A stretch of DNA of 64,000 bases from Methanoculleus taiwanensis (GTDB lineage Archaea; Halobacteriota; Methanomicrobia; Methanomicrobiales; Methanoculleaceae): the NCBI RefSeq assembly GCF_004102725.1, contig NZ_LHQS01000002.1, positions 611,984 to 675,983 of the forward strand, written 5' to 3'. Positions within the stretch are counted from its first letter, which is position 1, and each line of letters opens with the position of its first letter. Below the pieces are notes generated by a model that ran no database searches, was not told the DNA's origin, and was given only the letters and a program-made list of their open reading frames with translations. The position numbers and the translations under genes are program-made. Of the stretch, positions 21,137-38,881 are shown in pieces.

Positions 21137-21835
21137 ATGTTTCTTGCGTGCCACCTCTTTGTCGGCGTGCTGATCGGCCTTCTGCTTGCCGATCGTTTTC
21201 GGGATCGGAGGCTTCTTCCCATCGCCGCCGCTGGCGCGCTCCTCCCCGATCTCATCGACAAACCGCTTGGCCACCTGCTGCTCGCCGACTCGATCGACGA
21301 CGGACGGATCTACATGCACGGGCTCTTCATCGTTCTCTTTCTCCTCCTTGCAGGGATTCTGCTCTGGCGAAAGAGGCATTCTTTTGTTCTCCTCGCCCTC
21401 GCGCTCGGCATCCTCTCGCACCAGATCCTCGACGCGATGTGGGAGGTTCCCGTCAGCTGGTTCTATCCGCTCTTTGGGCCCTACCAGGCGGGCGACTTCC
21501 CCGACTTCTTTGCATTCGCCCTCTGGAGCGAGCTTGCCTCTCTCTCCGAGTGGGTCTTTGCCGCAGTCTCCGCCGTCCTTCTGGTGCTCGCCTACCGGGA
21601 TGTGGTGGAGCGCCGCCTCGGGTCACGACCGGTTGTCGCCGCCCGGAGTGCAGTTCCCCTGCTCGCTCCGCTTCTTGCGGGGCTCGGATCCGCCGCAATG
21701 CTCCTCCTCATGACCGGAAGCACGAGTGAGGTGTTCATGGTCGGCGAGACTCCGGAGACGAACCTCCTCCTTATGGCCGTCGGTTTCGGCGGGGCGGTGC
21801 TGCTCCGGCGGCGCCCTGCTACGGTATGCGAGTGA
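21137..21835 (+). CDS. membrane-bound metal-dependent hydrolase, YdjM/DUF457 type
   Basis: 232 aa, about six helices. Conserved polar motifs within the membrane are LACHLFVGVLIG, AAGALLPDLIDKPL, DDGRIYMHGLF and SHQILDAMWEVPV, giving the His/Asp set of the family. Reaction is unknown; members are called LexA-regulated or inner-membrane hydrolases, often tied to phospholipids. The last 17 bases overlap the convergent archaellin gene, an unusually tight tail-to-tail arrangement. Confidence 0.8.
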   Translation: MFLACHLFVGVLIGLLLADRFRDRRLLPIAAAGALLPDLIDKPLGHLLLADSIDDGRIYMHGLFIVLFLLLAGILLWRKRHSFVLLALALGILSHQILDAMWEVPVSWFYPLFGPYQAGDFPDFFAFALWSELASLSEWVFAAVSAVLLVLAYRDVVERRLGSRPVVAARSAVPLLAPLLAGLGSAAMLLLMTGSTSEVFMVGETPETNLLLMAVGFGGAVLLRRRPATVCE

Positions 21836-22397
21836 CGGGATCGATGGCGGCGGGGAGGTGCCTCTCCACCCGGAGAGCGCCGGCGCCGGCAGGCTTTATC
21901 TCGACGGTAAACTCACCGTTGGCGACGAGGTCGCTGACGAATAACGGCGCGACGTAGATCTGGAACTCCTCGCCCGGTTCGAGCATGCTGTCACCATCGT
22001 CGTTGAAGGTCTCTCCGACGCTCCACTTGCTGGAACCGATGGGCGGGATCGTATGCATCAACGGGACTTCCTGCGTCAGGTCACGTTTATGGTTCCGGCT
22101 GAGGAACCGGACGGCTGCCGTGCTGATATCGACGGCTCCCCCTCCCGCGGCGAGGCCGACCGGGATGCAGATCCTCTGCACATGGACGCCATCCTGGCTG
22201 AATCCGTAGATCGATCCCGTGGCCTTCAGGCTCGAGCTCGCCTGCTGCACCTCGTCGTGCACGACCTGCTGGGTATTCTGGATGGCGATAAACCCGGTGC
22301 CGAGCACCATATAGGAGAAGACGGATGCGACGACGACAAACGCGATGAGGATGATGGCGGCCTCAAGCCCGGTGAAGCCATCATCCCTATCGCACAT
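21819..22397 (-). CDS. archaellin (flagellin) homologue, short leader
   Basis: 192 aa. The class III signal is a seven-residue leader MCDRDDG followed by FTGLEAAIILIAFVVVASVF, the archaellin N-terminal helix cleaved by prepilin peptidase after Gly7. The C-terminal domain is a beta domain (GSIYGFSQDGVHVQRICIPV, VAPLFVSDLVANGEFTVEIKP). Last gene of an operon with a second archaellin, a cohesin protein and a dockerin protease. No archaellum motor genes are in the window, so it may build an archaellum from elsewhere or a dedicated pilus. Confidence 0.85.
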   Translation of the reverse strand: MCDRDDGFTGLEAAIILIAFVVVASVFSYMVLGTGFIAIQNTQQVVHDEVQQASSSLKATGSIYGFSQDGVHVQRICIPVGLAAGGGAVDISTAAVRFLSRNHKRDLTQEVPLMHTIPPIGSSKWSVGETFNDDGDSMLEPGEEFQIYVAPLFVSDLVANGEFTVEIKPAGAGALRVERHLPAAIDPVTRIP

Positions 22398-22412
22398 CCC
22401 ATCATCTCCTGT

Positions 22413-23021
22413 TCAGATCAGTTCATAGTAGTCGTTTGCCGTTATATCGGGTGGGGCTGTCCGTGTCAGCGCAAGGGCGACTCCCGTATCGGGGATGATC
22501 TCGACAGTGAAGGTATCCCCTTCGGCGATATTTGCGGTACTGAGATCGAGTTTGACCGCAACAAGTTCTCCCGCCTCGAGGATAGTATTGGAGTCTTTGC
22601 GGTATCGCCAGACTATCTCTTCTATCTTCGGATCCCCGGGAGGGATTGTCAGGAGAACATCATGGAGCGCTATCCGGTAGGACACCCGGGTCATATCGAC
22701 GCCGGTCCCTTTGCTGGCGGTCTCGAGGTTGATCTCGACCTTGCCTACCTTCCCTCCGGACGGATCGCCCTGGCAGACCACCGTCCCGCCGAGGGCGAGC
22801 GCGTTTCCCGACTGCTCGATACCGGCGTGGATGACCTCCTGGCTCTTCTGGGTTGCAAAAAAACCGCTGCCGAGGACGACGAAGGAGAAGACCGAGGCGA
22901 CGACGATAAAAGCGATGAGGATGATCGCCGCCTCAAGACCCGTAAAGGCCTCGTCGCCGTTCGCCGCCCCTGCCGGGAACCGGTGCCGTTTCTGCCTGGT
23001 TCCTGGAGCCGGGGTCTGCAT
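22413..23021 (-). CDS. archaellin homologue, long leader
   Basis: 202 aa from the ATG at 23021, with GGTGAG seven bases upstream; a GTG at 23033 is also in frame. The leader is unusually long (about 25 residues, basic: GTRQKRHRFPAGAANGDEA) before FTGLEAAIILIAFIVVASVF, and the residue before the cleavage point would be Ala rather than Gly. The mature part is archaellin-like with a beta domain (VSYRIALHDVLLTIPPGDP). It lies eight bases downstream of the cohesin gene and 15 bases upstream of the second archaellin. Confidence 0.82.
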   Translation of the reverse strand: MQTPAPGTRQKRHRFPAGAANGDEAFTGLEAAIILIAFIVVASVFSFVVLGSGFFATQKSQEVIHAGIEQSGNALALGGTVVCQGDPSGGKVGKVEINLETASKGTGVDMTRVSYRIALHDVLLTIPPGDPKIEEIVWRYRKDSNTILEAGELVAVKLDLSTANIAEGDTFTVEIIPDTGVALALTRTAPPDITANDYYELI

Positions 23022-23029
23022 GGTTCGTC

Positions 23030-24025
23030 TCACCGCCGGAGTATTGAGATCAGGAGCACACCGGCGAGTGCAAGCCAGATCGAGAAACCGGGCGCAGCGG
23101 TGCTCGCCGGAGTTGCCGGGCTCTCCGTGGTACGTATTGCCGTAAACGACGGCGTTACCACTGTCGTGCTCGCTGCTGTCGCCGTCGGCGTGGACACCTC
23201 TGCCGCTCCCGACGCTGCAGCGGAGAGAGACGTCGGTTCGGGTGTCGGGGTGGCCGTACCCGATGCTCCGCTAAGGTCGATGACGGCAACGAACGTCTGC
23301 TTCGCAAGATCGGTGATCGTCGCCGTCGGCACCGTGCAGGTTACCGTGTTCGGGCTCTCAGAAAGGGTATACTCGATACCCGCGGTCTCGAGATACTCGA
23401 TGAGTGCTGCGACCTCTCCGGTCACCACAACCGGTATCCCCTCGGAAGCTCCTGTGCGGTCCATTCTGTCACGGAGGCTCTCCGTGACGAGCGCCGCGTG
23501 CGGTGTCGCCGTTGGCTCGGGGTCGCTTCCGCCGCTATCGGGGGTAGGCGTCGGCGTTCCGGCAATATGTATCTGCCCGCTCCGAAGAGAGGCCTCGATC
23601 TCTGCTCCGGTGGGCGTGGCATCGGTCAGGGTCGCCGAGACAATCGTGAGTGACGTGGAGGCACCTGCAGCCCCTACCGCCTCGATCCCGATCTCGCAGA
23701 CCGTCGCCGCTCCTTCAAGTCCGGGGCTCTGGATCTGGAAAGCACCTATCCGGGCGGTTCCGAGCGAGTTATTGTAGTTCGAAAGCGGCCCGGTATCGAA
23801 ACTCCCACCGCTCACCCCGGTCACCTGCACGACCGCAGGGTTGTACGCAAGGTCGAGTGCGATCGTTCCGAGGTTCTCGGCGCCCGTCACGGAGACCTCC
23901 GCGACCGTCGTCTCACCCGGATTGAGAGTGATATCCTGAATCGATACCGTAGGTATGGCCTGCACCGCAACCGTTGCGTATGCCAGGCAGACGATAACCA
24001 GTATCCATTGCCATCTCTTCATCAT
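23030..24025 (-). CDS. cohesin-domain surface protein with PGF-CTERM anchor
   Basis: 331 aa. Signal peptide (1-23), then a cohesin-like domain at about 25-155 (VSIQDITLNPGETTVAEVSV, NLGTIALDLAYNPAVVQVTG, ARIGAFQIQSPGLEGAATV), a Thr/Pro linker, a small domain at about 180-255 (GIPVVVTGEVAALIEYLETA), another Thr/Ser/Pro linker and a C-terminal APGFSIWLALAGVLLISILR. That end is a PGF-CTERM type sorting signal, recognised by archaeosortase A, so the protein should be lipid-anchored on the surface. It follows the dockerin protease by 12 bases, making it the obvious partner. Confidence 0.83.
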   Translation of the reverse strand: MMKRWQWILVIVCLAYATVAVQAIPTVSIQDITLNPGETTVAEVSVTGAENLGTIALDLAYNPAVVQVTGVSGGSFDTGPLSNYNNSLGTARIGAFQIQSPGLEGAATVCEIGIEAVGAAGASTSLTIVSATLTDATPTGAEIEASLRSGQIHIAGTPTPTPDSGGSDPEPTATPHAALVTESLRDRMDRTGASEGIPVVVTGEVAALIEYLETAGIEYTLSESPNTVTCTVPTATITDLAKQTFVAVIDLSGASGTATPTPEPTSLSAAASGAAEVSTPTATAASTTVVTPSFTAIRTTESPATPASTAAPGFSIWLALAGVLLISILRR

Positions 24026-24037
24026 AGTTCACCAGGA

Positions 24038-25774
24038 TTAGTGCAATTCCAGAAAGCCCGGTACGCTGAGCACGTGCTTTGCCAGGTACATGGCGTCGGG
24101 CATGCCGACCGTTCCGTCGTTCGTGACGTCGGCGATGTTCGTATCGATATTCTCATATCCCTCGGTTCCGAGGAGATGCCGTGCGGTGTACAGGGCGTCG
24201 TAGAGGGTCACCCGGTTGTCCCTGGTGACGTCGCCGTTCCTGATCACGAGCAGCGGTATCGTGGCTGACGTGTTCGTACAGCCATAGGTGTCGGTTGCGG
24301 TGAGGGCAAGGTCGAACGGCCGGTAGGCTCCGTCGATGTACGGGGAGGGTACGCTGCTCGAGACGTTCAGCACCCAGGTCGCCCCCGTGCTCCGGTTCAT
24401 TGCTACGGCGGGTGCGCCGCCGAGCGGGGAGAGATCGATTGTCACGGTTGCGATCGGGTTGTCGCCGGTGACGGTAGCCGTCAGTGTCGTGGCCTCCCCG
24501 ATGCCCGGAGTGCCGCCGCCGAGGCTTGGGATGGATGCCGGTATCACCGTGCTCTCCGCAAGGGTGATAACCGATCGGCTGACGACCGCTTCGAAGGCGT
24601 CCACCCTGCCGTAGCCGTAGTACGAGTCCCTTCCGGCCGCGCCGAGATCGTCGGCGGTGGCCGCGAGGAGAGAGCGGAGCTCTGCATTCGTCATATCGGG
24701 ATAGCGAGACTTGACGAGAGCGGAGACGCCTGCGACGAAGGGGGTTGCCATCGATGTTCCCGAGGAGCTTTTGTACTGCCCCCCCGGCCAGGTCGAGTAG
24801 ATCCCTCTCCCCGGCACGACGAGCTCCTGCTCGCTGCCGTAATTGCTGAAGTCGCTGAGTACATTATTCGAATCGAGAGACCCGACCGCTATCACCGTGC
24901 TGAGGGCGGCAGGATAGAGGACGGGGCTGCGATACCCGTTTCCCGAGGCTGCGACGACGAGACACCCATTATCCCACGCATACTGGCAGGCTTCCTGCAG
25001 CGTAGTGGACGGGCTGCTGCTCCCGAGGCTGAGACTGATGATATCCGCACCATTGTCGACGGCGTGGGTGATGCCGCTCGCAACAGTGGATGAATAGCCG
25101 CCACCTCCTGCGTCGAGCACCTTCTCGGCAAGAATGCCGACCTGCGCGATCCCGGCAACACCGGCGCTGTTGTTGATCGTCGCGGCGGCGATACCGGCGC
25201 AATGGGTGCCGTGGCCGTTATCGTCCCGTGGATCGGCGTCGCCGTTCACCCAGTCATACCCGCCTGCCAGGTAGTTTGCTGCAAGGTCGGGGTGGGTATA
25301 GTCGACTCCGGAATCCACGATGGCTATGATGACGCTCGCGTCGCCCTGCTCGAGGTTCCATGCCTCGTCGGCCCTGATGGCGGCAGGCCCCCACTGGAGG
25401 GAATAGTAGGGATCGTTTGGAAGGAACGATGCCGGAGTGCAGGCGTATACGGGATAGTCCGGTTCGACGAATGCCACGTCCTCCCGGGCCGCCATCCCGG
25501 CGATAAACCGGTTGGTATCGTTCACCGCATAGATGACGGCATTCAGCGGTTCGCAGGTCTCGACCACCGCCGCACCGGCGATCTCTTCGGGTATCGGATC
25601 GGAAGAGGACACTGCTGCAACCTGCAGGCGTACCGGAGACGGCGTTTTGTAGCCGACGATCACACGCCCCGGAGTGCCCGTATCGTCGAAGGATGCTGCA
25701 ATGGCGAGAGCAGGTATCAGGAGTATTCCCGCAAGGAATGAAAATGCCAGTAATCGCTGTATATGGTTGTCCAT
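24038..25774 (-). CDS. secreted subtilisin-like (S8) protease with C-terminal dockerin
   Basis: 578 aa from the ATG at 25774. Signal peptide (1-27), an inhibitor-like propeptide (about 35-110, RVIVGYK ... EDVAFVEPDYPVY), and an S8 catalytic domain with Asp154 (VDSGVDYTHPD), His188 (GHGTHCAG), oxyanion Asn279 and Ser341 (GTSMATPF). A beta domain follows (about 430-510). Residues 515-571 hold two dockerin type I calcium loops, DVTRDNRVTLYDALYTARHL and DVTNDGTVGMPDAMYLAKHV. It should be secreted and held by a cohesin. First gene of an operon with a cohesin protein and two archaellins; clear TATA box upstream. Confidence 0.93.
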   Translation of the reverse strand: MDNHIQRLLAFSFLAGILLIPALAIAASFDDTGTPGRVIVGYKTPSPVRLQVAAVSSSDPIPEEIAGAAVVETCEPLNAVIYAVNDTNRFIAGMAAREDVAFVEPDYPVYACTPASFLPNDPYYSLQWGPAAIRADEAWNLEQGDASVIIAIVDSGVDYTHPDLAANYLAGGYDWVNGDADPRDDNGHGTHCAGIAAATINNSAGVAGIAQVGILAEKVLDAGGGGYSSTVASGITHAVDNGADIISLSLGSSSPSTTLQEACQYAWDNGCLVVAASGNGYRSPVLYPAALSTVIAVGSLDSNNVLSDFSNYGSEQELVVPGRGIYSTWPGGQYKSSSGTSMATPFVAGVSALVKSRYPDMTNAELRSLLAATADDLGAAGRDSYYGYGRVDAFEAVVSRSVITLAESTVIPASIPSLGGGTPGIGEATTLTATVTGDNPIATVTIDLSPLGGAPAVAMNRSTGATWVLNVSSSVPSPYIDGAYRPFDLALTATDTYGCTNTSATIPLLVIRNGDVTRDNRVTLYDALYTARHLLGTEGYENIDTNIADVTNDGTVGMPDAMYLAKHVLSVPGFLELH

Positions 25775-25820
25775 CGTTCTGTTCCCGTTCCGGTCGTTGA
25801 CACAGTGTCTTTTTGGATAC

Positions 25821-25832
25821 GATATATATAAT
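25821..25832 (-). promoter_or_regulatory. TATA box of protease-cohesin-archaellin operon
   Basis: Alternating tatatata run ~48 bases upstream of the ATG; start expected near 25797. Confidence 0.65.
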
Positions 25833-25974
25833 TGTTCCTTCCGCATAAATGCCGCGAAACCTCTTCTTTTAAAAATCTGTGTTATCCCCCGGATGCATGG
25901 GGCTTAGCATGACGTCGTGCCGGAGCAAAGGTCGGACTCATCGGTACGACCCGGCGCTCTGTGGTGCGCCCTCG

Positions 25975-26017: not shown

Positions 26018-27268
26018 TTACTGCCTCTTCCGGGCTACCAGCAGTGCCCCGCCGGCGATCGCCGCAAGCGAGAGCATGCCGAGGAACCAGGCGTCAGGTC
26101 CTGCCTTCTGGGTCGGCGTCCCGGTCACCGGCGTCGTCTCGCCGGAGGCAGGGATGACTGTGGGGCTCTCCACGTCCGGGGTCACCGTCGCCTCGCTGGC
26201 AAAGGTCATGAGGGCGAACTGCCCGGGGGCGGTGATATCGGCAACGATGGCGTTCCCTTCGATACGGCTCGGGACGATCGTCCAGGTGCCGCTTGCGTAC
26301 GCCGCAAGGAACGGAGTGGCCGCTTCACCGTTCAGGCGGAGGGAGAGTGTTGCGGCGGGGCTGAACCGTGCCGCTGCGGGCGAGACGACGTAGGTTCCCG
26401 CGATGACCTGCCAGTCGGCGGGGACGCTCATCGGGCTTGACTCGATGATGGCGAGGCTCTCCGGGTTTACCCCGGTGATCGCATCGCGGGCGACGATGAT
26501 CCCGGCGACACCGTCGAGCGATCCCGCAGAAATGCTGTTGGACGGTTCAGGGGTGGTCGTCGGTATGCTGCCGGACGGTGCACCCGTTGAACCGCTGCTC
26601 CCGGGCAAGGTGGTGGCGGTCGGGGATGCCGTGGGCGTCTGTGTCGGTGTCGCCGTCGGCACCTCGCCGATGATGATATTCTTATTCACTTCTTCGTTGC
26701 CGTTGACGAGGATGACGATCCGTGCCGTTCCCTGGTCGATCCCCGCGAGATCGAAGGTTATCTGCGAGTTATCAGGACCCATCTTCGTCCCGGAGAGTTC
26801 GAGTGAGAAATCGACACTCTCCGACCCGGATACGGCATCGCCGTAGGCGCGGAGCAGGTCTACGGAACCGCCTTTAATATTTTCGAGCCCCTGCGGATCG
26901 GGGTTCACGACACCGTCGTCATTATCGAACGCTTCTATGCTTTTTGCAGTGCCGCCGGTCTGTACTCGGAGTCCGGCACGCGTCGCCGGTTCGGCGCGAA
27001 TCCGTACGACGGGACTATTGAGCGAGAAGGGGATGTTCACGTTGGTGGCCTCGAAACTGAACTCGTCCTGGCCTTCGAGGCCGACCGTGGCCTCCATCCG
27101 GAGCGCGAATGTGCTGCCGTTCGCAAGACCGGCAGCGTTGATCGTAACGGTATCGCCGCTCTCGATATGGTCGGGGGTAATTGAGATGTCGAGGGCCGCT
27201 GCTCCTTCCACCGCGCAGAAGGCGAGCAGAATAAGGCCGCATAGGGTAAGTAATCGTTGATGCTTCAT
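26018..27268 (-). CDS. membrane-anchored surface protein
   Basis: 416 aa. Signal peptide (1-26, ending AAALD), then a beta-rich domain (about 27-205; DHIESGDTVTINAAGLANGS, EFSFEATNVNIPFSL). A Thr/Pro/Ser linker follows (PTATPTQTPTASPTATTLPG), then a second domain (about 255-360; PADWQVIAGTYVVSPAAARF) and a C-terminal helix AWFLGMLSLAAIAGGALLVA with basic end RKRQ. The domain pattern recalls the PGF-pre-PGF region of methanogen surface proteins. The tail (QKAGPDAW before the helix) could be a variant sorting signal. Own terminator, and 229 bp separates it from the next gene upstream. No catalytic motif seen. Confidence 0.7.
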   Translation of the reverse strand: MKHQRLLTLCGLILLAFCAVEGAAALDISITPDHIESGDTVTINAAGLANGSTFALRMEATVGLEGQDEFSFEATNVNIPFSLNSPVVRIRAEPATRAGLRVQTGGTAKSIEAFDNDDGVVNPDPQGLENIKGGSVDLLRAYGDAVSGSESVDFSLELSGTKMGPDNSQITFDLAGIDQGTARIVILVNGNEEVNKNIIIGEVPTATPTQTPTASPTATTLPGSSGSTGAPSGSIPTTTPEPSNSISAGSLDGVAGIIVARDAITGVNPESLAIIESSPMSVPADWQVIAGTYVVSPAAARFSPAATLSLRLNGEAATPFLAAYASGTWTIVPSRIEGNAIVADITAPGQFALMTFASEATVTPDVESPTVIPASGETTPVTGTPTQKAGPDAWFLGMLSLAAIAGGALLVARKRQ

Positions 27269-27497: not shown

Positions 27498-30400
27498 TTA
27501 GTTGTCCTTCTTCATGTAGAAGAACGCTGCTCCCGCGACGACGATGATCGCGACGATGGCGATGATGATCATCATGAACGGAAGTTCTTCGGTAGGCTGT
27601 GCCGGGGTCGTCGGGGTGACCTCAGTCGGGGTGGCCGTTACGACTTCAGTCGGGGTGGCCGTCGGCAGGACACCGGTGGTGTAGACGACCGCGAACATGC
27701 TGAAGTGCGTGACGGTGGCGGTCACCGTTCTCGTAGCCGCGTTGACCGTGGTCGGGACATCCTCCCAGGCATCGGTCTCTGCGTTGTACCACTTGAACGT
27801 CGGCACCTGGCCGCTGGCGATCATCGCGTTCCAGTCCTCTTCGGAGAGGGTGGCGGTGAGCGTCATGCCCGGGTTGAAGGTGGCGCCTGCAGGGCCGCAC
27901 TCATAGACGTAGCCGGAAACGCTGAAGAGGGCACCCGCCGGGGCTGCCGGAGCGTCGCTGGCCCGCTCGATGGTGATGCTACTGATGGGGTTGCCGTCTG
28001 CATCGAGAGCACGCACACCCGACTGCAGGGTGAGTTTCGCGCTCTCGTCGCTTGCAACGACGGCGATCGTCTTGGTCACGATACCGCTGCTGCTGGTCGA
28101 GACCACACCGCTTCCCTCATAGGTAACGACGCTACGGCTGCTGCCGCCGCCGCCGCCACCGCCGCCACTGGGCGTGTACGGCGTGGGCGTGGGGGTCGGC
28201 GGGGTTACCGGCACCAGGGAGATGCTGGCCTGGTTGTAGAGGGTCATGTTACCGTTGTTCTCGGTGAACATGTAGAGGTAGTAGTTGCCGGCGACAAGGC
28301 CGCTCGTTGCGACCTGGACGGTGCTCGAGTTCGTTGCAGTACCGTATTTGCCGTAGCCGGGCGTGATGTAGATGTTGCTGATGAGTTTCTCAACGGTCGT
28401 GTTGCCGTTCGCGTAGAGCCTCACGTCCTCGAGCGATCCGGTGCCGAGGGTCGTGAGGTTCAGCGCCATAGCGCCGGTGTAGGTCGCGTCCCTGTTGATC
28501 AGGAGCGCTGCGATGTTCTGCCCGGTGCTGCCTGCAGTGACCACGACGGGGCTGCCGATGGTGTAGCTCGAGGCGCTCGGGTTGATGTTCTGGCCACTCG
28601 CGGCGACCTGGAAGGTCTCCATGGTGATGATGCTGAACCGGTCCTGGTCGACGCAGACCGCGAGGACGACATACTCACCGGCGCCGAGATCGCTGATCTG
28701 CAGGGGCGTCGTGATGCCCGTTGCGGTTGCCGAGTTGAAACCGGCGTCGAGGTTGAGGTAGTTCGAGCGGATAGCGCTCATCAGGTTGCTGGACGCGCTG
28801 ATGGTACCTTCCTGCTTGAGGATGGTGATCGACCCGTCATTTGCTACACTGATGATACCGTAGCCGTACTGTCCGCCACCCTTGCCGTAGAGCACGATCT
28901 TGTCCTGGCTGAGCAGTTCCTGGAGCGTGCCTGCCGACGGGGAGGTGCTGGACGGGTTTCTGATCATCTGGTCGAGCAGGGTGCTGTTCGCCTTGCCGAT
29001 CATGATGGTGGCGTTGTCGACGTCGGGCACCTGGATCGTGAAGTCGAGGCTGCCGGTGGGGGTCGCGTAGATCTTGATCGCCGCAGGCAGCTCGCCGGCG
29101 GTTATGGGATCGTTCTTCCGGTTGTCGAGGGTTGCATTGCTTCCCGGGACGATCGTCTTCGTAAACGTGCCGAAGGTCGGGAAGGTCATCGCCGTGTTCG
29201 GGCCGGTCAGGGTGATCGCCCGGGCGACGTCGAAGTAGTTGAAGATAGCCGTCTTCGAGAGATCGATGCCTGCAAAGGTGCCGAGCGAGGCATCGTTGTA
29301 GTAGGCGAGATAGTTGTTGTAGAGGTGGAACTGTGCGCTCTGACCCTGGTTGCCGGCGAGGTCGACCGCAGAGACGGTCAGGTTCCGGTTGCCGGGCGCG
29401 GTGTTCAGGAAGAGCATGCCGGGGTTTGTCGTGTTGGTGACGGTCTCCACCCATGCCTGCTTGAAGTTCGCGTCGGTTACGGTGTAGGAGATGATCAGGT
29501 TCTCGTTCGCCTCGACGAATCCGTCACCGTCGGAGTCCTGGATGCCGGTGATGGTAACGACGGGCGCTGTGGTGTCCTTGGTGAAGGTCACGGTCGCGCT
29601 CTGCTGGGAGGCGTCAAGCGAGCTCGTGCCGTTGACGACGACTACGTAGGTGTTGTCCGCGAGGACGCCGTACGAGGCGTAGTTGAGGGCGATGGCTCCG
29701 TCGGTTGCGCCGCCGCTGACCGTACAGTCAGTCGTGACGTCGACGTTGTTTAAGAACATCTTGACACTTGCCTGGTTCACCTGCACGAAGGCCGCGGTGA
29801 TCGGGGGCTGTGCCTGGTTCGTGTAGTTGCCGTCCGCAGGAGCGGTGATGGTGACACCGGACTGGGCGACGGTGACGTAGTGGATCCTTGTGCCGATGTT
29901 TCCTGTCAGGTCGCTTGCCGAGACTGCGACCGGGACGTTGGTTCCGATAGCGACGCCGCTCTTCGTGGCGGTGACACGGTACCCGCCGGCAATGGCCACG
30001 GTGTTCAGGGTGTCGGCCTGCTCGCCGCCGACGCTGACAGCGATGCTGGTCACGTTCACACCACCGACATCGGTGATATCAGCGACGACGGTCACGGACT
30101 GTGCAACCGTTGCGCCGTCAGCCGGGGATGAGATAGTGATCGCAGGCGAGGTGTAATCGGTTGTGGTGAACGTACCGGGTACGAGGGAGTACTGACCTGT
30201 CACATCGCCGCCGACCTTTTCATCGACTTCATGATTCGCATAAGCGCCGTCGATGGCGATTGCGGTTGAAGTGCCGTCGTGGACAAGTGCATTACAGGTC
30301 AGGGACAGCAGCGTCTGATTTCCGGTAACACTCTTGCTGCCGGAGAAGTCCTGGACATAGACAATACCATTTGTTACGGGAACAGGTGGATTGTAGAACT

Positions 30401-30641
30401 GCCCAAGCCCTGCGTAGTCAGTAACGGCCGTGACATTCATCACTGCCGGGTCCCAGGTGATCTTTAAGTTATACCCGTTGAGCTGATCCGAACCGTTACA
30501 GGTTACGAATATCTCAACCCCCGCAGTGCCCGTTGCGGACGACACCTGCAGCTCTTTTGCGGCAGATGCTCCGGAAACGGCAAACACGGAGAGAATGAAT
30601 AGAATGCTAATGCATAAGCAAGCTTGGCGTATGGTGGACAT
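27498..30641 (-). CDS. large surface protein with cohesin-like and Ig-like domains
   Basis: 1047 aa from the ATG at 30641, with GAGGAG five bases upstream. Signal peptide (1-28, ending SGASA). Residues about 30-155 are cohesin-like (LNGYNLKITWDPAVMNVTAV, GIVYVQDFSGSKSVTGNQTL). Two Ig-like repeats follow (about 165-350; PAITISSPADGATVAQSVTV and VTITAPADGNYTNQAQPPIT), then a calcium-loop-like DSDGDGFVEANE, a long middle region, a Pro/Thr and nine-Gly hinge, and a PGF-pre-PGF-like domain (FNPGMTLTATLSEEDWNAMI, TVTHFSMFAVVY). The end is a Thr/Pro stalk and one helix (MMIIIAIVAIIVVAGAAFFY) with MKKDN. Many NxT/S sites. Probably a cell-surface scaffold; 53 bases after the gene upstream. Confidence 0.75.
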   Translation of the reverse strand: MSTIRQACLCISILFILSVFAVSGASAAKELQVSSATGTAGVEIFVTCNGSDQLNGYNLKITWDPAVMNVTAVTDYAGLGQFYNPPVPVTNGIVYVQDFSGSKSVTGNQTLLSLTCNALVHDGTSTAIAIDGAYANHEVDEKVGGDVTGQYSLVPGTFTTTDYTSPAITISSPADGATVAQSVTVVADITDVGGVNVTSIAVSVGGEQADTLNTVAIAGGYRVTATKSGVAIGTNVPVAVSASDLTGNIGTRIHYVTVAQSGVTITAPADGNYTNQAQPPITAAFVQVNQASVKMFLNNVDVTTDCTVSGGATDGAIALNYASYGVLADNTYVVVVNGTSSLDASQQSATVTFTKDTTAPVVTITGIQDSDGDGFVEANENLIISYTVTDANFKQAWVETVTNTTNPGMLFLNTAPGNRNLTVSAVDLAGNQGQSAQFHLYNNYLAYYNDASLGTFAGIDLSKTAIFNYFDVARAITLTGPNTAMTFPTFGTFTKTIVPGSNATLDNRKNDPITAGELPAAIKIYATPTGSLDFTIQVPDVDNATIMIGKANSTLLDQMIRNPSSTSPSAGTLQELLSQDKIVLYGKGGGQYGYGIISVANDGSITILKQEGTISASSNLMSAIRSNYLNLDAGFNSATATGITTPLQISDLGAGEYVVLAVCVDQDRFSIITMETFQVAASGQNINPSASSYTIGSPVVVTAGSTGQNIAALLINRDATYTGAMALNLTTLGTGSLEDVRLYANGNTTVEKLISNIYITPGYGKYGTATNSSTVQVATSGLVAGNYYLYMFTENNGNMTLYNQASISLVPVTPPTPTPTPYTPSGGGGGGGGSSRSVVTYEGSGVVSTSSSGIVTKTIAVVASDESAKLTLQSGVRALDADGNPISSITIERASDAPAAPAGALFSVSGYVYECGPAGATFNPGMTLTATLSEEDWNAMIASGQVPTFKWYNAETDAWEDVPTTVNAATRTVTATVTHFSMFAVVYTTGVLPTATPTEVVTATPTEVTPTTPAQPTEELPFMMIIIAIVAIIVVAGAAFFYMKKDN

Positions 30642-30694
30642 ACTTACTCCTCTCGAGGTTTGATTTCTAACATCAGATAAAAAGTTTTGTAAAT

Positions 30695-31477
30695 TTAAAT
30701 AAGTTTTCTTATCTTTGCGAGGCAAATTGCGGCAATAATCACTCCGCTAATTACGAGTAGCGGGCTCGACGGTGACCTGGGGGTTGTTTGGGGTTCGGTG
30801 CTTTTTGCCGTCGTTTCTGCCGACACCGCGGGCGCCAAAGAAGGCGATGGCGTCGGCAGCGGCGTGCTGCCCTCCGTGAGTGCAGGGGATGCGGCAGGTA
30901 TCACCGTCGATGATGGCTCCGGAGTTCCGGAGGGCGCGGGTGCCGGGTTGCCGGTGACACCCGACCCGGTAGACCCGCCGGTTGCAGTGGATGTTGATCC
31001 ACTTGCAGTGCCGGTCGGGGGCACGTATCCGGTTTCCGGCTGATAGGCAGGCACTGTGGGCGTCGGCGAGCCGGTTGCATCGGGCATGGCGCCGATTGTA
31101 TTGGAGACCGCCACATCATTGAGGTCGCTGTCATACAGTTCGTACACCACGATCGAGAAATTGCCCTTACCGGCATAGGTAAACCTGGCAAGGCGGGCAG
31201 AGTACGTATCGCCTCCGGTAAACCCGACGATCCGTGTCCACCCTTCATCGTTCCTGATCCCGAACACGCCGGTGTAGGGCGGGAGCGCTTCGACATCCAG
31301 AATACTGGTATCTGCAGAGTAGTTCAGCTGGATATTGTATCCTGCGATCTTTGTCGAATCACTGGCTACAAAGGTGAGATACTGCTGATCGCCATCACTC
31401 TCGATGACGATCTCACTTGCTGCTGTCACTGAAACGAGTGCGATTGCGAGTAAAAAAATGAGTGCTGTTCGGGTCAT
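30695..31477 (-). CDS. cohesin-like membrane-anchored protein
   Basis: 260 aa. Signal peptide (1-19, VSVTAAS), then a compact cohesin-like domain (about 20-130; KIAGYNIQLNYSADTSILDV, GWTRIVGFTGGDTYSARL, ARFTYAGKGNFSIVVYEL). A ~100-residue Pro/Thr/Ser/Gly stalk follows and then a C-terminal helix (LLVISGVIIAAICLAKIRKL). Built like an anchoring scaffoldin with one cohesin. It sits 22 bases after the giant thioester/dockerin protein and is the nearest candidate to hold that dockerin. Confidence 0.72.
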   Translation of the reverse strand: MTRTALIFLLAIALVSVTAASEIVIESDGDQQYLTFVASDSTKIAGYNIQLNYSADTSILDVEALPPYTGVFGIRNDEGWTRIVGFTGGDTYSARLARFTYAGKGNFSIVVYELYDSDLNDVAVSNTIGAMPDATGSPTPTVPAYQPETGYVPPTGTASGSTSTATGGSTGSGVTGNPAPAPSGTPEPSSTVIPAASPALTEGSTPLPTPSPSLAPAVSAETTAKSTEPQTTPRSPSSPLLVISGVIIAAICLAKIRKLI

Positions 31478-31499: not shown

Positions 31500-34400
31500 T
31501 TAGAGGGGCTGGTAGTTGTCGTCGTACTGACCGGGGATCAGATACTGTGCAATGCTGATTGCATCCTGCAGCCGTATACGGCCTGAGTCGTCGACATCGC
31601 CGTAGAACTCATCGTTACCCGTCAGTTCTCCCTGACCCGGCAAGAGCGACTGTGCAATGGTGATGGCGTCGGTCAGACGGATCCTGCCGTTGTTGTCGAC
31701 ATCTCCGAGCATTCTGCCCTCGAAGTCGAGGTAGATCTGATCGATATCTCCGGTATCGACGTTGTTCAGGATGAGCTGGCCGTTCTCGATGGTGAAGTCG
31801 GTGTAGGCGAACCATCCGGAGGCGTTGTGCACGAGCACGCTGATCGTGTCGTTCACCATCGCCGTGCCGATAGTCCGGTTGACCGTCGGGATCTCGACTG
31901 CAATCGTCGCCCGTCCGCCGCTGCTCGAGATACTCGAGTTGAACGACGTCATGGCTCTGGTCGCGGCATTCCAGCGGTTGGTACTGCCGTTGCTGATAGT
32001 CTCCTCGATAGCCGGCGGCATCACGCGTGCATTGCCGCTCGCGCCCTCGATCTGTGCGATGTGCGGCAGCGTGCGGTCGGAGACGAACTGGGCACTGTAG
32101 GTCGTGGTATCGCCGGGTGTGACGGTGATGGTGGTGTTGACCCAGGAGGTCTCGTTCCGGATTGCGACGGCGTAGGCGCCCTCGACCCGCTCCACTGAGG
32201 TGATGTTGGTGTTCACTGCGACCGCTGCACCGTCAACGTAGAAGTCGGCGAGAACCGCTGCTCCCTCTTCGTTGACTGCATCCAGCGTGATGTTTCCGTA
32301 GCCCTTGATGTAGGTTGCCCCGTCGGCGACCGCCATCCAGGTGTCGTTGTACATCGGGTAGGCACGTGCTTCGACCGAGTTGTTGCCGTAAGCCTCGAAG
32401 GTCAGCGGCACGTAGAAGGTCTTGCTCGCGCCGGCGGTGATACTCGGCTGCGATTCGTCGTCAGAGCCGGGGTAGACGTAGAGTTTCGCCGTGGTGGCGT
32501 TGTACATGTGGTTGATGTAGACCGGGCTGCCTTCGGAGAGGTAGTACGCGGTGGCCGAGCCCGTTGCACTGCCCGTGAAGTTCACGCGGGACGTGATCGG
32601 GATCTCGATGATCATCGTCGTCTGATCCACGGCTCCGGGCCCGTTGTTGTTAATCGTGAACCCGACGTCGGCAGCGTCGCCTTCGGTGAGCGTGTATCCG
32701 CTGTTCGGGATAGCCACGTCGAGGAAGAAGTCGGTTGCGATCGGGTCGATGAACTCCGCGGGGATGGATGCATATGCGATAGACTGCGGCACCTTCTCGA
32801 AGCTGTTGACCTCGACGAAGAGTTTCGCCTCATCCACGGTTCCGACATCCGACTTGCCGGAGACGATCACCTGTGCCACGGAGTCTGCCGAGGGGACGCT
32901 GTAGAGCGAGGCCACCTGGGCGGGCGAGAGGGTGTAGACGTACTGGAAGTTGGCATTGTCGAACTGGATGTTGTTCAGCGACCATACGGTGTCGCCGTTT
33001 CCGTTCTTCAGCTCCGCGTCGACGTTGAAGTTGATGGTTGCGTGCGGCTGCACCTGGGTTAAGGTGTTGATGACGACTGCGGTCGTCCGGGTGCTGCCCC
33101 AGCCCCAGCTGCCCTTGGCGCCGAGCAGGTAGCGGACACCGCCGGCGATCGTCTCGTTGTCGGCGTCGAGTCCGGACCGGTTCAGGGCGAGGACTGCGTG
33201 AGCCGTGGCCTCGGCGCTCTGGTCCCAGGAGTAGGATCCTGCCAACGCTGCGCTCTTCTGGTTCAGGAGTTTCGTCTGCAGGGCGGTGATGTTGCTGTTG
33301 ATAAGCGCAGCATCGCCGAGACCGTGTTCGCGGATCGCGACGAGACCGTAGATCCCGTGAGCGACTGCCTGCGGCCCCTCGCTGTTGTAGTTGTGGTTCT
33401 CGAGCCAGGTGAGCGACTTGTTCAGGGTGGCGTTCACGCTGGTCTTCATCGTGTCGTTGAGGTAGGGATAGTCGTTTGCCAGCTTCTCGCTGGTGAACCC
33501 AGTCCACTCCACCTCGTTGTAGATGTAGCCGTAACCGGACCAGCGCCCATCGGTCTTCTGCTGGTTGATCAGCCAGTTCGAACTTGCGTTCAGGTTGATC
33601 TCGTCAGGAGTGAAGTTGACCGCACTGCCCCAGTACTCGGGGTCGTTGTCGTTTAAGAGTTCGGTGATGACGTAGTTCGGGTAGAGCGTGTAGAACGCAG
33701 ACGGCCTTGAGTTCTTGCCCCAGGCCCATCCGCCGGATCCGTCACCGTACGATGCGCCCGGGAGCTGCTGGGCGTTGTAGCCGTTCGGTGCGCTCATCCG
33801 CGCGATGGCATCCTGCATGTTCTGCTGGAAGGAAGCGTTCATCGCGTCGGTCAGCGCCCCGCGCTGCTCGTAGTACTGCTTAACTCTGAGGATAGCGAGC
33901 GCCGGGCTCATCGTCTGCTCGGGGCATCCGTGCGGGTAGCCGACGAGCTGTTCAAGACCGTTCAGCGTCCTTCCCTCCGCTCCCGCGGCGAGGGTCACTT
34001 TGACGCTCTTCCCCTGCGAAGGCGACCGGTTGAAGACGTCGAAAGGCACCGCATCTCCGGCAGTGTCGGCGATCAGGGTGCTGTTGACCACCTTGATGTC
34101 GAGGAGCGGTTCCAGCACCCGGATGGTGCCGTTGACGTAGTCGGACTCGCCGCGCGCTTCAAGGCTGATCGAGTAGTCGAACGTGCCGAGCACCTTCGGT
34201 CTGATGTAATACCAGGTCACCGAGTTCCAGGTCGAGTCGTAGCAGTACGGCTGGAGCGTCGCCGGGTAGTAGTAGTGGAGGTCGAAGGGCGAGTCCTGTG
34301 ACAGGTCGACCGGCGTCCCGTTCGGATACCAGATCGAGAGGGTGGCGTTTGGCCGTGCCGGCTGGTTTGCGGTGTAGTAGGTGCCGAGCGAGAAGTACTG

Positions 34401-37400
34401 GTTGACGTACGGGGTCTTGTTGTAGTTGTAGTACCGCTCGTAGTAGTTCTCGTTCGTGGTGGTGATCTCGAGGGTGAACGGCTGAATTACGGTGTTCCGG
34501 ACGGCGGCATTTCCTATGGGGTAGTCGTCACCGGAGATCTGCGCCTTCACCTCGTAGGTGCCGGGCACCATGGGTTTCCATGTGTTGATCGTGAAGTACT
34601 TGCTTGCGTAGGCGCCGAGCGGCACCGACGAGGCCGACCAGATCTCGGTGCCGTTGATCGTCACGTTGACGTCGACGGTGACCGGGTTGGTCTTCGCGTT
34701 CCAGACGCTGACCGATATGGTCTGGTTGTAGCCCTCCGAACCGATCGTCGGGACATACAGGTTCACGCGTGCATCGGAGACATTCTCCTGCGTGTACAGG
34801 CCTTTCGTAATGCCGAGATTGAGATAATTGCCGCCGGTCGTCTTGACGTAGGCGTCGGTCTGCGAGTCGAGTACACTCGTTCTGCCTGCATCGGCTCTTG
34901 CTTTCAGGGTGATATCGGCAACGTTGATGTTACCGAAGATGTTGACGTCCGTCCCGGTGATCGTTACCCGTCCGTAGGACGACGACCAGGTGACACCGCT
35001 TCCGGTCTTTACGGAGGATACGTAGCAGACGGTCGGGTCATACTTGATCGGTACGGAGAACGCCGTGATCGGTGCGGAGACATTCGTCAGCCAGAGAGAG
35101 AGCGTCGCGTCTGACGACGTCGAACCGGTCACACTCGGCAGAATGACGGTCACGGGTGCGTAGGCCTGGTAGCCGGTCGTGCGGGTGTTGTTGTTCGGGT
35201 TCGTCTCGACCTCGGCACCGTCGCTGTTGACGGTGACGGTGAAGGCCTTCTGGCTGCTGCCGATCGCAACGCCGGTCAGGGTCTGTGTCCAGGACTCGCC
35301 GGGCTGCAGGGCGGGAACATTGTAGATGGTGCTCGCACCCTGGTTTGTGAAGTTGAGCTTCGTCGCGACCGCGTAGACGTTGCCGATGTTCCGAACACCG
35401 TAGGTCACGTTGTAGGTGCCGGGCACGACCTCTTCCTGGATGGTGGTCTCGCTCGACGGGAGACCGGCGGTCAGTTCGGTCGAGAGAACCGGGATGAGAT
35501 CGGGTTTCGTGATGGCGGCCTGGTGGGTGACGTAGTTGTTCTCCTCGTTGACCTCTTCGACCTCATTGTCGACATCGATTCCAAGGCCGATGGAGTAGTC
35601 GCCGACGCTGATGTCACCGCCGGTCGTGATGACGTAGGTGCGTTCCGATCCCGATCCGCCCATGACGACACTGGTCTCCGGGTAGCCGGGGATGACATTC
35701 ATCGTCATGTGGTAGGTGAGCTTCCCACCGGCGGCGATGTCGTCGGTGATGGTAATGTTTGTCTTCTGGCTTCCAAAGCCTCCCTCAATCTTGAAGTCCT
35801 CGGTGACGCCCACGGTGCCGACGTTCTCGATCACCATGGTGGTCGTGAAGTTGAGGTGGCCGTCTGCGTACTTCTTGATGTATGCAGGGGCGTCCACGAG
35901 GTAGCCGCGGAGGTCGGCGCCCGCCGGTGAGACGATGGTTACTTCGCCATTTACGATGCTCGCGAACGGAGTGCTGATCGTTACGTTCTCGCGGGGGTAG
36001 TACCACTTCTGGATGTGGTAGTACGCGGCGAATTCGGTCTTATCACCGACATCTCCGACCGCCTTCATTTTGAAATCGGCGAGCGGCGTGACAGCGTTCG
36101 TGTTCAGACCTCTCGTATTGTTGAAGAACAGCCAGGCGGAGCTGGATCCGCTTTCATACTCGCTCAGCCACGGGTCGTCGAGCATCACGCCGGCAGCGGT
36201 AGCGGTCTGGCTTACGGTGATGTTCGCGATGTTCGTGAAGGTGACGATGGAACTGTTGTAGTTAGGGACGCACATCATCTCGTCGACCAGTCCCAGGTCC
36301 TGTACGGAGAGCGAGAGCGTCTTCTGGGTGCCGACGGTCACGGTGCCGTTCGGTAACGTGAGTATACCGCGGGCCGCCGGGATGTTGCCGCCGGATGCGG
36401 TGACGGTGCCGTTGACAGTCCTGTTGAACTGGAAGTCCCAGTACGCTGCTGCGCCGACGTCGGCGCCGGACTGCATCTGCTCGATGATATCGGTGCTGTA
36501 GAGGTTGACGGAGCCGGTTCCGTAAGACCCGTACATGACGGTCTTACTCTCGCCCGCCCTGTCCGTTGTCCGGTAGGTGATATCGAGGATCGGTGTCGAA
36601 TCCGAGACGGTAAGCCCTGCTGGTGCGAAGACGTAGGCATTAACGTAGCCTATCGTAGAGGAGTACTCGCCTTCGAGCATTCCGTTGCCGCCCCATCCGT
36701 TCGAGAGGAAAACGCCCTCCGGCATCCCCTGGCTGAGCTGCATATCCTCAACGGCGATGTAGGCCGCATCGAACTCGACCTGGATCCACACCGCGGTCGC
36801 GTCCGTCAGGTTTGCAACGCTGACGCTGAAGGTACCGCTCTGCCCGGAAGCGATGCTCCCGGATGGCCCCGTGAGTGTTGACAGGGGTGCCTGCGTCGGG
36901 GTCGGAGTCGGCGTCACCGTGGGTGTGCCGCCCAGAACCGTGAACGTGCCGTTGACGGTGGTGACCGGGATGCTTTCACCGCCTTCGCTTTCGAGGCACA
37001 TGACGCTGAGGTTCAGCGGGCTCGTCTCCCCGGCAGTGCCGACAGCCCGCAGACTCACATTACAGACCTTCACCGGGCCGGTGAGTTCGGAGCCGCTGAT
37101 CTGCAGTCCCCCGATGGAGGCCCAGCCGGTTTCGTTGTCGATGAAGTAGATCGGGGTGTCAAAGTCGCTGCCCGAAAGTGCATCGACGTAGACCACATCC
37201 GGATCGTACACAAGGGCGACACCGCATGTGGCGGGGGATGTCGGAAGATCGTTGATCATAATCGGTACGGTCATCGTCCCGCCCGGGGCGACCGCGGCGC
37301 CACCAACAGATATGGTGGTCGCCACGACCGCGCCCGCGGGAAGAATGATCATTGCTATCAGGATGAGTAGCAATGGCAGAATTTTAGCGGTATTCTTCGC

Positions 37401-37415
37401 TTCTTTTTCAGTCAT
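31500..37415 (-). CDS. giant surface protein: cohesin-like and CARDB repeats, thioester domain, C-terminal dockerin
   Basis: 1971 aa from the ATG at 37415, with GAGGTG about seven bases upstream. Signal peptide about 12-32. Cohesin-like domains are near 33-160, 180-345, 350-490 and 775-900 (for example CGVALVYDPDVVYVDALSGS and ITAFSVPIKYDPTVCYVSSV), with CARDB-like repeats at about 495-770 (EEVNEENNYV, VETNPNNNT). Residues about 1145-1450 match the thioester domain of alpha-2-macroglobulin/complement proteins: LEQLVGYPHGCPEQTMSPA gives Cys1164 and Gln1167, followed by the helical toroid (SSNWLINQQKTDGRWSGYGY, GWGSTRTTAVVINTLTQVQP). Residues 1905-1964 are a dockerin with loops DVDNNGRIRLTDAITIAQSL and DVDDSGRIRLQDAISIAQYL. 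First gene of its operon; no membrane anchor, so it should be held by a cohesin. Confidence 0.85.
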   Translation of the reverse strand: MTEKEAKNTAKILPLLLILIAMIILPAGAVVATTISVGGAAVAPGGTMTVPIMINDLPTSPATCGVALVYDPDVVYVDALSGSDFDTPIYFIDNETGWASIGGLQISGSELTGPVKVCNVSLRAVGTAGETSPLNLSVMCLESEGGESIPVTTVNGTFTVLGGTPTVTPTPTPTQAPLSTLTGPSGSIASGQSGTFSVSVANLTDATAVWIQVEFDAAYIAVEDMQLSQGMPEGVFLSNGWGGNGMLEGEYSSTIGYVNAYVFAPAGLTVSDSTPILDITYRTTDRAGESKTVMYGSYGTGSVNLYSTDIIEQMQSGADVGAAAYWDFQFNRTVNGTVTASGGNIPAARGILTLPNGTVTVGTQKTLSLSVQDLGLVDEMMCVPNYNSSIVTFTNIANITVSQTATAAGVMLDDPWLSEYESGSSSAWLFFNNTRGLNTNAVTPLADFKMKAVGDVGDKTEFAAYYHIQKWYYPRENVTISTPFASIVNGEVTIVSPAGADLRGYLVDAPAYIKKYADGHLNFTTTMVIENVGTVGVTEDFKIEGGFGSQKTNITITDDIAAGGKLTYHMTMNVIPGYPETSVVMGGSGSERTYVITTGGDISVGDYSIGLGIDVDNEVEEVNEENNYVTHQAAITKPDLIPVLSTELTAGLPSSETTIQEEVVPGTYNVTYGVRNIGNVYAVATKLNFTNQGASTIYNVPALQPGESWTQTLTGVAIGSSQKAFTVTVNSDGAEVETNPNNNTRTTGYQAYAPVTVILPSVTGSTSSDATLSLWLTNVSAPITAFSVPIKYDPTVCYVSSVKTGSGVTWSSSYGRVTITGTDVNIFGNINVADITLKARADAGRTSVLDSQTDAYVKTTGGNYLNLGITKGLYTQENVSDARVNLYVPTIGSEGYNQTISVSVWNAKTNPVTVDVNVTINGTEIWSASSVPLGAYASKYFTINTWKPMVPGTYEVKAQISGDDYPIGNAAVRNTVIQPFTLEITTTNENYYERYYNYNKTPYVNQYFSLGTYYTANQPARPNATLSIWYPNGTPVDLSQDSPFDLHYYYPATLQPYCYDSTWNSVTWYYIRPKVLGTFDYSISLEARGESDYVNGTIRVLEPLLDIKVVNSTLIADTAGDAVPFDVFNRSPSQGKSVKVTLAAGAEGRTLNGLEQLVGYPHGCPEQTMSPALAILRVKQYYEQRGALTDAMNASFQQNMQDAIARMSAPNGYNAQQLPGASYGDGSGGWAWGKNSRPSAFYTLYPNYVITELLNDNDPEYWGSAVNFTPDEINLNASSNWLINQQKTDGRWSGYGYIYNEVEWTGFTSEKLANDYPYLNDTMKTSVNATLNKSLTWLENHNYNSEGPQAVAHGIYGLVAIREHGLGDAALINSNITALQTKLLNQKSAALAGSYSWDQSAEATAHAVLALNRSGLDADNETIAGGVRYLLGAKGSWGWGSTRTTAVVINTLTQVQPHATINFNVDAELKNGNGDTVWSLNNIQFDNANFQYVYTLSPAQVASLYSVPSADSVAQVIVSGKSDVGTVDEAKLFVEVNSFEKVPQSIAYASIPAEFIDPIATDFFLDVAIPNSGYTLTEGDAADVGFTINNNGPGAVDQTTMIIEIPITSRVNFTGSATGSATAYYLSEGSPVYINHMYNATTAKLYVYPGSDDESQPSITAGASKTFYVPLTFEAYGNNSVEARAYPMYNDTWMAVADGATYIKGYGNITLDAVNEEGAAVLADFYVDGAAVAVNTNITSVERVEGAYAVAIRNETSWVNTTITVTPGDTTTYSAQFVSDRTLPHIAQIEGASGNARVMPPAIEETISNGSTNRWNAATRAMTSFNSSISSSGGRATIAVEIPTVNRTIGTAMVNDTISVLVHNASGWFAYTDFTIENGQLILNNVDTGDIDQIYLDFEGRMLGDVDNNGRIRLTDAITIAQSLLPGQGELTGNDEFYGDVDDSGRIRLQDAISIAQYLIPGQYDDNYQPL

Positions 37416-37774
37416 ACTCTTCCACCTCAAAAGGATTCTTGCGGAAGGGAACAGTTGTGCTCTGATGTAGGGAGATACGTAGATCTTCTCTCAATGGTGG
37501 ATAAATACATTTCTGTTTACAGAATTTCCACAAAACAGGTTTAAACGAAATTATATTTGATATTTGAGCTATTTTTCGATTGCACCTGATCAGCGGCTCC
37601 GGCAAAGCACCCCGTGATACATACGTCTTCTGCCCGAAATAGTCTCTTCCCATTCCGTTTCTCCGGTTTGGGGCGATGCCGGAAGCCGGCGCACCACCCC
37701 GAAGGCTACGATGCCTATCCGTGCGTGGTTAACCGTCAGTGCCTGTCTGAATCCGTATATAATGGTATCCCGAT

Positions 37775-37900: not shown

Positions 37901-38881
37901 ATGCCACCCGACGCTTCCGCCGATGCGCTGATCACTGCACTGAACCCGCGGGCGATTCCTCGCGACCTCGCGATAATCTATGCCTGGATCCTCGTAACTC
38001 TCGCGAGTATCTATCTCCCTGTGTTCAATACCAGTTTTCTTCGGGTGCTCTTCGCGCTCCCCTTCATCCTCTTCATCCCCGGATACCTCCTGATCGCCGC
38101 GCTCTTCCCGAGAAGCGACGATCTCGATGGCATAGAACGCGTCGCCCTCTCGTTCGGACTCTCCATCGCGGTCGTCCCGCTGATCGGGCTTGCCCTGAAC
38201 TACACGCCGTGGGGTATCAGGCTCGATCCGATCGTCGCCTCGCTCCTGATCTTCAGTGCCGCGATGGGGCTCATCGCCCAGTACCGGCGCTCGGCCGTCC
38301 CTGCCGGAGAGCGGTTCGTCGTTCCTTTCGGCGAGGCCGCCGCTGCCGTTCGCGGAGAATTCTTCAATAAAGACGCCTCCCGCCTTGACCGGGTCTTAAG
38401 CATCGTGCTGCTCGCCTCGATCCTGGTCGCCGTCGCGACGACGGTCTACGTCATAGCCGTCCCGAAAGAAGGGGAGAAGTTCACCGAGTTCTATATCCTC
38501 GGGTCGAAAGGCATGGCTGCGGACTACCCGACCGACTTTGCCGCGGGAACCGCTCAGACGGTGATCATCGGGGTGGGGAACCACGAATACCGGAACGTCA
38601 CCTATACCGTCGAGACCCTCGGGCTCAACCAGGTCTTCGATGAGACGACGAACGAGTCCGCGATTCTGTCGTCGACACTGCTCGACCGGTTCACCGTGAC
38701 CGTGCCGCATAACGAGACCGTCGAACAACCTTATACGTTTACCCTCACCGATCCTGCGGTGAACCGGGTTGAGTTCCTCCTCTATGAAAATCCCCCGGCA
38801 GACTCGGTGACCGCGGCCGAGCGGATCAACGAAAGTTACCGCGACCTGCACCTCTGGGTCAGGGTACGACCGACAGGATGA
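37901..38881 (+). CDS. DUF1616 membrane protein
   Basis: 326 aa. Four or five helices: residues 22-45, 47-70, 80-105, 112-128, then after a cytoplasmic loop a helix at about 165-187 and an extracellular domain (AAGTAQTVIIGVGNHEYRNV, FTVTVPHNETVEQPYTFTLT). This is the layout of archaeal DUF1616 proteins, with the FALPFILFIPGYLLIAALFP start typical of the family. Often found by surface-glycan or surface-protein genes in archaea. Its last 23 bases overlap the convergent gene. Confidence 0.85.
   Translation: MPPDASADALITALNPRAIPRDLAIIYAWILVTLASIYLPVFNTSFLRVLFALPFILFIPGYLLIAALFPRSDDLDGIERVALSFGLSIAVVPLIGLALNYTPWGIRLDPIVASLLIFSAAMGLIAQYRRSAVPAGERFVVPFGEAAAAVRGEFFNKDASRLDRVLSIVLLASILVAVATTVYVIAVPKEGEKFTEFYILGSKGMAADYPTDFAAGTAQTVIIGVGNHEYRNVTYTVETLGLNQVFDETTNESAILSSTLLDRFTVTVPHNETVEQPYTFTLTDPAVNRVEFLLYENPPADSVTAAERINESYRDLHLWVRVRPTG

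Follow-up and report, generated by a model that had tools for sequence, protein, structure and literature searches.

We describe here an operon of four minus-strand genes, running from position 25774 to 21819 of the window (the whole stretch of 64,000 nucleotides of Methanoculleus taiwanensis that was analysed; genome G000), which encode an S8 protease with a dockerin, a protein with a single cohesin and two archaellins. On balance we favour the reading that the locus represents a docking system of cohesins and dockerins at the cell surface, in which the protease gene has captured a pair of archaellin genes. The idea of docking is strengthened by the recurrence of similar neighbours in the family. 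The coupling of the archaellins is real as gene order, probably real as transcription, and seems to be confined to one genus. An earlier note on this DNA had reported the operon at 21819-25774, and its ORFs, domains and gaps were confirmed as claimed. The operon and its flanks consist of the following features:

25823..25840, minus strand: TATA-type operon promoter element AAGGAACAATTATATATA, assigned by sequence and kept in the sister genome G117 at an equivalent distance
24038..25774, minus strand: P0001, secreted S8 subtilase with an Ig-like module and a C-terminal two-loop dockerin (Pfam; G117 ortholog 52%)
24068..24235, minus strand: dockerin module of P0001 (residues 538-593 of the 602-aa ORF; Dockerin_1, 36.1 bits)
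23030..24025, minus strand: P0002, protein with one cohesin, linkers rich in Thr and Pro, an orphan domain of 80 aa and an APGF-hydrophobic-RR C-terminus
23564..23950, minus strand: cohesin module of P0002 (residues 26-154; Cohesin, 34.9 bits)
23261-23512, minus strand: orphan 80-aa domain of P0002 (residues 172-255)
22413..23021, minus strand: P0003, archaellin, first of pair A (ORF opens with GTG at 23033; Arch_flagellin, 88.4 bits)
21819..22397, minus strand: P0004, archaellin, second of pair A (Arch_flagellin, 90.6 bits)
21137..21835, plus strand: conserved YdjM-family flank of archaellin pair A
37901..38881, plus strand: g37901, membrane-protein gene, copies of which adjoin pair A and the island in relatives

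The description of P0001 as a subtilisin with a two-loop dockerin was borne out by its Pfam scores (Peptidase_S8 212.6 bits, Dockerin_1 36.1 bits) and by intact Asp/His/Ser triad motifs, which make it an S8 subtilase. Its closest solved structure is thermitase, and its dockerin, which reached 40.9 bits in the genome search, is by sequence of the two-loop, calcium type. The ORF opens at 25846 (24038-25846, 602 aa) and the likely start is the ATG at 25774. As the earlier note had put it, one promoter and gaps of 8-15 bases link the genes: the intergenic gaps measure 12, 8 and 15 nt in gene order, and a single TATA-like element, AAGGAACAATTATATATA, begins 66 nt ahead of the start codon of the protease. 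Its counterpart in G117, AAGGAACTATTATATATC, lies 67 nt before the protease start and is identical to it in 16 of 18 letters, a match that none of 100 shuffles reached. The most AT-rich 12-mer holds 12 A/T before the protease and 8 A/T upstream of the archaellins in G000 and G117 (150 nt). From these sequences we infer that one promoter serves the protease, cohesin and archaellin genes.

Both P0003 and P0004 match the Arch_flagellin profile over most of their length and carry an archaellin N-terminus, and hence are archaellins; solved relatives of the pair are 7txi, 5tfy and 9i5h. Pair A goes back to an old duplication of the main archaellin pair, which sits apart from it at C3:117645-118795 of G000; in the tree, the clades that hold the window genes are supported at 100/99 and do not include the main-pair rows. 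Four archaellin matches, i.e. two pairs, were obtained in most well-assembled genomes of the Methanoculleus type. Pair A may provide minor or alternative subunits of the archaellum. In six of the seven relatives' loci tested we found a proximal promoter, CTTTTAATC, 32-33 nt before the first pair-A archaellin, the exception being L108, where the exact string is missing. A promoter of this type is absent from the 150 nt examined upstream of pair A in G000 and G117, where the best match to its core TTTTAATC amounts to 5/8 and 6/8 letters, respectively. In both genomes of the genus pair A is located directly behind docking genes, and the proximal promoter of the relatives is gone. Since we see no separate promoter for these archaellins, their transcription should start at the protease promoter. 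Pair A would then be made together with the docked protease, and such joining need not imply that the protease acts on filaments.

G117, the sole other genome of the genus in our comparison, matches Methanoculleus sp. FWC-SCC1 (a stretch of its contig 3 occurs in NZ_VCYH01000003.1). Its gene order is ABC, g20033, YdjM, archaellin 2, archaellin 1, S8-dockerin, a cohesin/dockerin cluster, g37901 and g38859, so that the protease-archaellin order is kept, at 52, 66 and 64% identity. P0002 is absent between the protease and archaellin genes of G117, and hence the protease there appears to work without it; at the far end of that locus, a 373-aa cohesin-PKD-dockerin protein has the cohesin nearest to that of P0002 (35%). 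In the family, g37901 adjoins archaellin 1 in 11 and YdjM adjoins archaellin 2 in 12 of 13 pair-A loci. Both archaellins are present in 14 of 23 named loci, with an S8-dockerin at FWC-SCC1 only; in the other 13, g37901 takes the place of the S8-dockerin beside pair A. We also fetched 20 archaellin stretches and left out a short contig end, which gave 19 loci, 16 of pair A and three (L120, L121, L123) of the main-pair type by tree. No S8 or P0002-like gene matched at any of the 19. So far, the archaellin-protease link appears to be genus-specific, being found in two genomes of the genus. The proposed tie between archaellins and docking genes is thus present in both genomes of the genus but is not general, as relatives keep the pair elsewhere with its own promoter. 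When gene order was compared across relatives, a check that the earlier note had called for, none had all four genes in a row, although each pairwise link occurred in some relative.

It might well be, although we would not bet on it, that the genes are merely adjacent. Under such a scenario rearrangement placed the archaellins behind surface-protein genes, their co-transcription has no function, and docking and filaments are independent. This would fit the missing P0002 in G117, as well as the lack of an S8-dockerin or P0002-like cohesin gene near pair A in 13/13 named loci (FWC-SCC1 aside) and 16/16 fetched pair-A loci, two counts that overlap because they partly come from the same genomes. 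However, order and tight spacing have been kept even though the proteases are only 52% identical, and the archaellin promoter has been lost in both genomes.

P0002 had been called a PGF-CTERM protein. The PGF-CTERM model gave no match to it among NCBIfam matches to E 1, but the APGF-hydrophobic-RR tail is present and G000 encodes archaeosortase A (TIGR04125, 297.3 bits against a cut-off of 75). Because it has one cohesin only, P0002 is better regarded as an anchor than as the scaffold proposed before; the candidate for a multi-cohesin scaffold is encoded at 31500-37430. Full-length relatives of P0002 were not found in a 100-genome sample of the order, nor was there a PDB match to E 0.1, and its 80-aa domain has no clear relative across 231 genomes of the order (best other E 0.0086). 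We considered this domain as a subtilisin-propeptide-like (I9) inhibitor of P0001 and found no support from model, Foldseek or genome search: AlphaFold gave a weak model (pLDDT 60), and the best Foldseek hit has an E of 0.28, with no propeptide in the best 50.

Besides that of G117, P0001 has orthologs in G040, G103 and G107, with up to 52% identity in the catalytic part. A different dockerin type closes the G040 and G103 proteins, and the G107 locus stops within the tail. About 1.7 kb from its protease, G103 encodes an anchor of 268 aa with one cohesin (30.9 bits) and an APGF tail. Homologs of this anchor are present in 5/40 family genomes (G103 as the query itself, G040, G106, G004 and G010), and in each of them an S8 shares the contig with the anchor, about 0.15-1.8 kb away in four and 14 kb away in G040. 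In G106 the anchor begins ~145 nt past the stop codon of the S8-dockerin gene, with both on one strand; in G004 the anchor comes first and the S8-dockerin follows ~175 nt later; and in G010 ~200 nt lie between the anchor and an S8 that runs off the contig, its end unseen. The cohesins of these anchors score 29.2 (G106), 27.1 (G040), 26.4 (G010) and 23.0 bits (G004, just below the cut-off). The protease dockerin is called by Pfam in G106 and G004, and in G103 and G040 by likeness to those only. In the gene lists read for these loci, no archaellin was noted. A search with the G103 anchor does not retrieve P0002 at E 1e-5; the likeness between these anchors is thus one of layout, and they need not be orthologs. 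Since a protease-dockerin beside a tethered single cohesin recurs in the family, docking of the protease to the anchor can soundly be inferred. The earlier prediction of a protease docked to a lipid-anchored scaffold has thus gained from a neighbourhood that recurs in 5/40 genomes, all with an S8 on the contig of the anchor, albeit with an anchor where a scaffold had been proposed. We suggest that the P0001 dockerin would bind the P0002 cohesin in a calcium-dependent manner, by which the protease would be held at the surface.

P0001 may not be the only partner of such an anchor. Using phmmer, we found the full P0001-type tail (Ig-like plus dockerin) in 13 G000 proteins including P0001, and a partial tail in one more; the twelve other tail-bearing proteins are encoded on C1 and C2 (L081-L088). 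Three of the 13 are peptidases (two S8, one papain-like C1), and the remaining ten have NHL, beta-helix or PKD domains, or domains that were not recognised. Of the 13 tails, eight have a degenerate second calcium loop, and Pfam recognises the dockerin in five. Within the family the tail was seen at E 1e-10 in G000 and G117 only, and genus g2 carries a different tail type. Further cohesin-bearing and surface proteins are encoded upstream of the operon:

26018..27268, minus strand: P0005, surface protein, homologs of which flank the island in relatives
27498..30725, minus strand: large surface protein with a divergent cohesin at its N-terminus (23.5 bits, just below the cut-off) and a C-terminal hydrophobic tail
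30695..31477, minus strand: small protein with a linker, a C-terminal hydrophobic tail and weak cohesin likeness (hhalign probability 64)
31500..37430, minus strand: scaffold candidate, 1976 aa, with two Pfam cohesins, CARDB, a TED domain with GCPEQ and a C-terminal dockerin

The scaffold candidate has two cohesins over the Pfam cut-off and two further cohesin-like stretches by a local profile; that profile had been trained on one of these two stretches, which therefore is not independent. Its TED_complement match (29.6 bits, cut-off 22) with GCPEQ identifies a thioester domain of the alpha-2-macroglobulin type, and CxEQ is kept in 7/7 TED proteins examined, this one included. The four places with a cohesin that we found in G000 all fall within the locus, three of them over the cut-off. 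A P0005-type N-terminal domain precedes the dockerin tail in three other proteins, L086 and L087 of G000 and L093 of G117. With 13 proteins sharing the tail and a 1976-aa scaffold candidate encoded upstream, the anchor may have partners besides the protease; other tail-bearing proteins may dock to P0002 or to the scaffold. One could think of protease, anchor and scaffold as a complex for nutrient acquisition, similar to a cellulosome but for proteins. We consider this unlikely: three peptidases among 13 tail proteins and a multi-cohesin scaffold candidate close by would agree with it, but the other ten look more like a general tether for surface proteins, and hydrogenotrophic methanogens are not known to live on protein.

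How has the joined locus originated? An S8/TED gene pair is present in 7/7 loci fetched, which were chosen because they match, and P0005- and g37901-like flanks at five of these seven indicate equivalent outer genes in other genera. In genus g2 the S8/TED island lies apart from pair A, whereas in the genus of G000 the two are joined. In the g37901 tree, the window gene and that of FWC-SCC1 fall in a clade (97/94) with island copies and the archaellin-side copy of G100, and the g2 archaellin-side copies fall outside this clade. The link probably arose by juxtaposition, within the genus, of two loci that most relatives keep apart. However, in two f4 genomes YdjM genes are also located close to the island, and an ancestral joined order that was split later could therefore be the case as well; the joined state could be new or old. 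We also considered a simple insertion of the island between archaellin 1 and its divergent neighbour, which is weakened by the finding that the island elsewhere has its own copy of that neighbour. As a side observation, the S8 (~1760 aa) and the TED protein (~1270 aa) are a kept neighbour pair in seven genomes (L139-L145). In G117 the S8 of this pair carries a dockerin and a cohesin just below the cut-off, and its TED partner likewise has a dockerin, together with a cohesin by the local profile; copies of these proteins could therefore bind each other and form chains.

It is very unlikely in our view that the protease matures or remodels archaellin filaments or co-made surface proteins. Archaellins are processed by prepilin peptidase at a conserved G/A before F and are not known to be matured by subtilisins, and the archaellins of relatives have no S8 nearby (0/19 loci), despite the tight linkage in two genomes that such a role would explain. 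Even more speculative, and in our opinion the least probable, is a trap-and-cut machine in which a thioester scaffold would capture foreign or own proteins, dockerin proteases would plug into the scaffold and tethered cohesins, and archaellins would be co-made so that filaments and docked proteases appear together. If instead a docking system has captured the archaellins, methanogens would fix proteases on their envelope by plug-and-socket assembly. The recurring protease and tethered-cohesin neighbours offer a defined pair for binding tests, and the archaellins, if co-transcribed as predicted, could serve to monitor surface expression.

Archaeal cohesins and dockerins have been catalogued for years, yet a clear role has been lacking. 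Among open-licence papers we found none that joins dockerin and archaellum and none on Methanoculleus FWC-SCC1. With the bacterial cellulosome the locus has in common a tethered cohesin, a multi-cohesin protein with its own dockerin and a common dockerin tail. A candidate multi-cohesin scaffoldin (31500-37430) is present, as are dockerin proteins elsewhere in the genome. However, Pfam detected no glycoside hydrolases or carbohydrate-binding modules in the 13 tail proteins and the island proteins; here we find peptidases, beta-helix and NHL proteins, and the scaffold bears a TED domain. Closer are the non-cellulosomal systems of archaea, with which the locus shares exported proteins that bear recognisable modules of both the cohesin and the dockerin type. 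According to the accessible text of PMC9012536, such modules occur on surface proteins of Archaeoglobus and ANME without cellulose degradation, binding has been shown for some, and ANME have scaffold-like proteins with several cohesins and a dockerin. Compared with what that text covers, the system described here is centred on a protease, has a tethered single cohesin in the operon and has archaellins downstream. An S8 subtilase with a dockerin has been tabulated in Halobacterium (NP_280653; PMC2605481); it shares this combination with P0001, and the accessible text of that paper describes neither a cohesin partner nor an archaellin operon. With the archaellin pairs of Methanomicrobiales, finally, pair A has in common the Arch_flagellin domain and the N-terminus, but here it is a second pair, which lies behind the predicted promoter of a protease.
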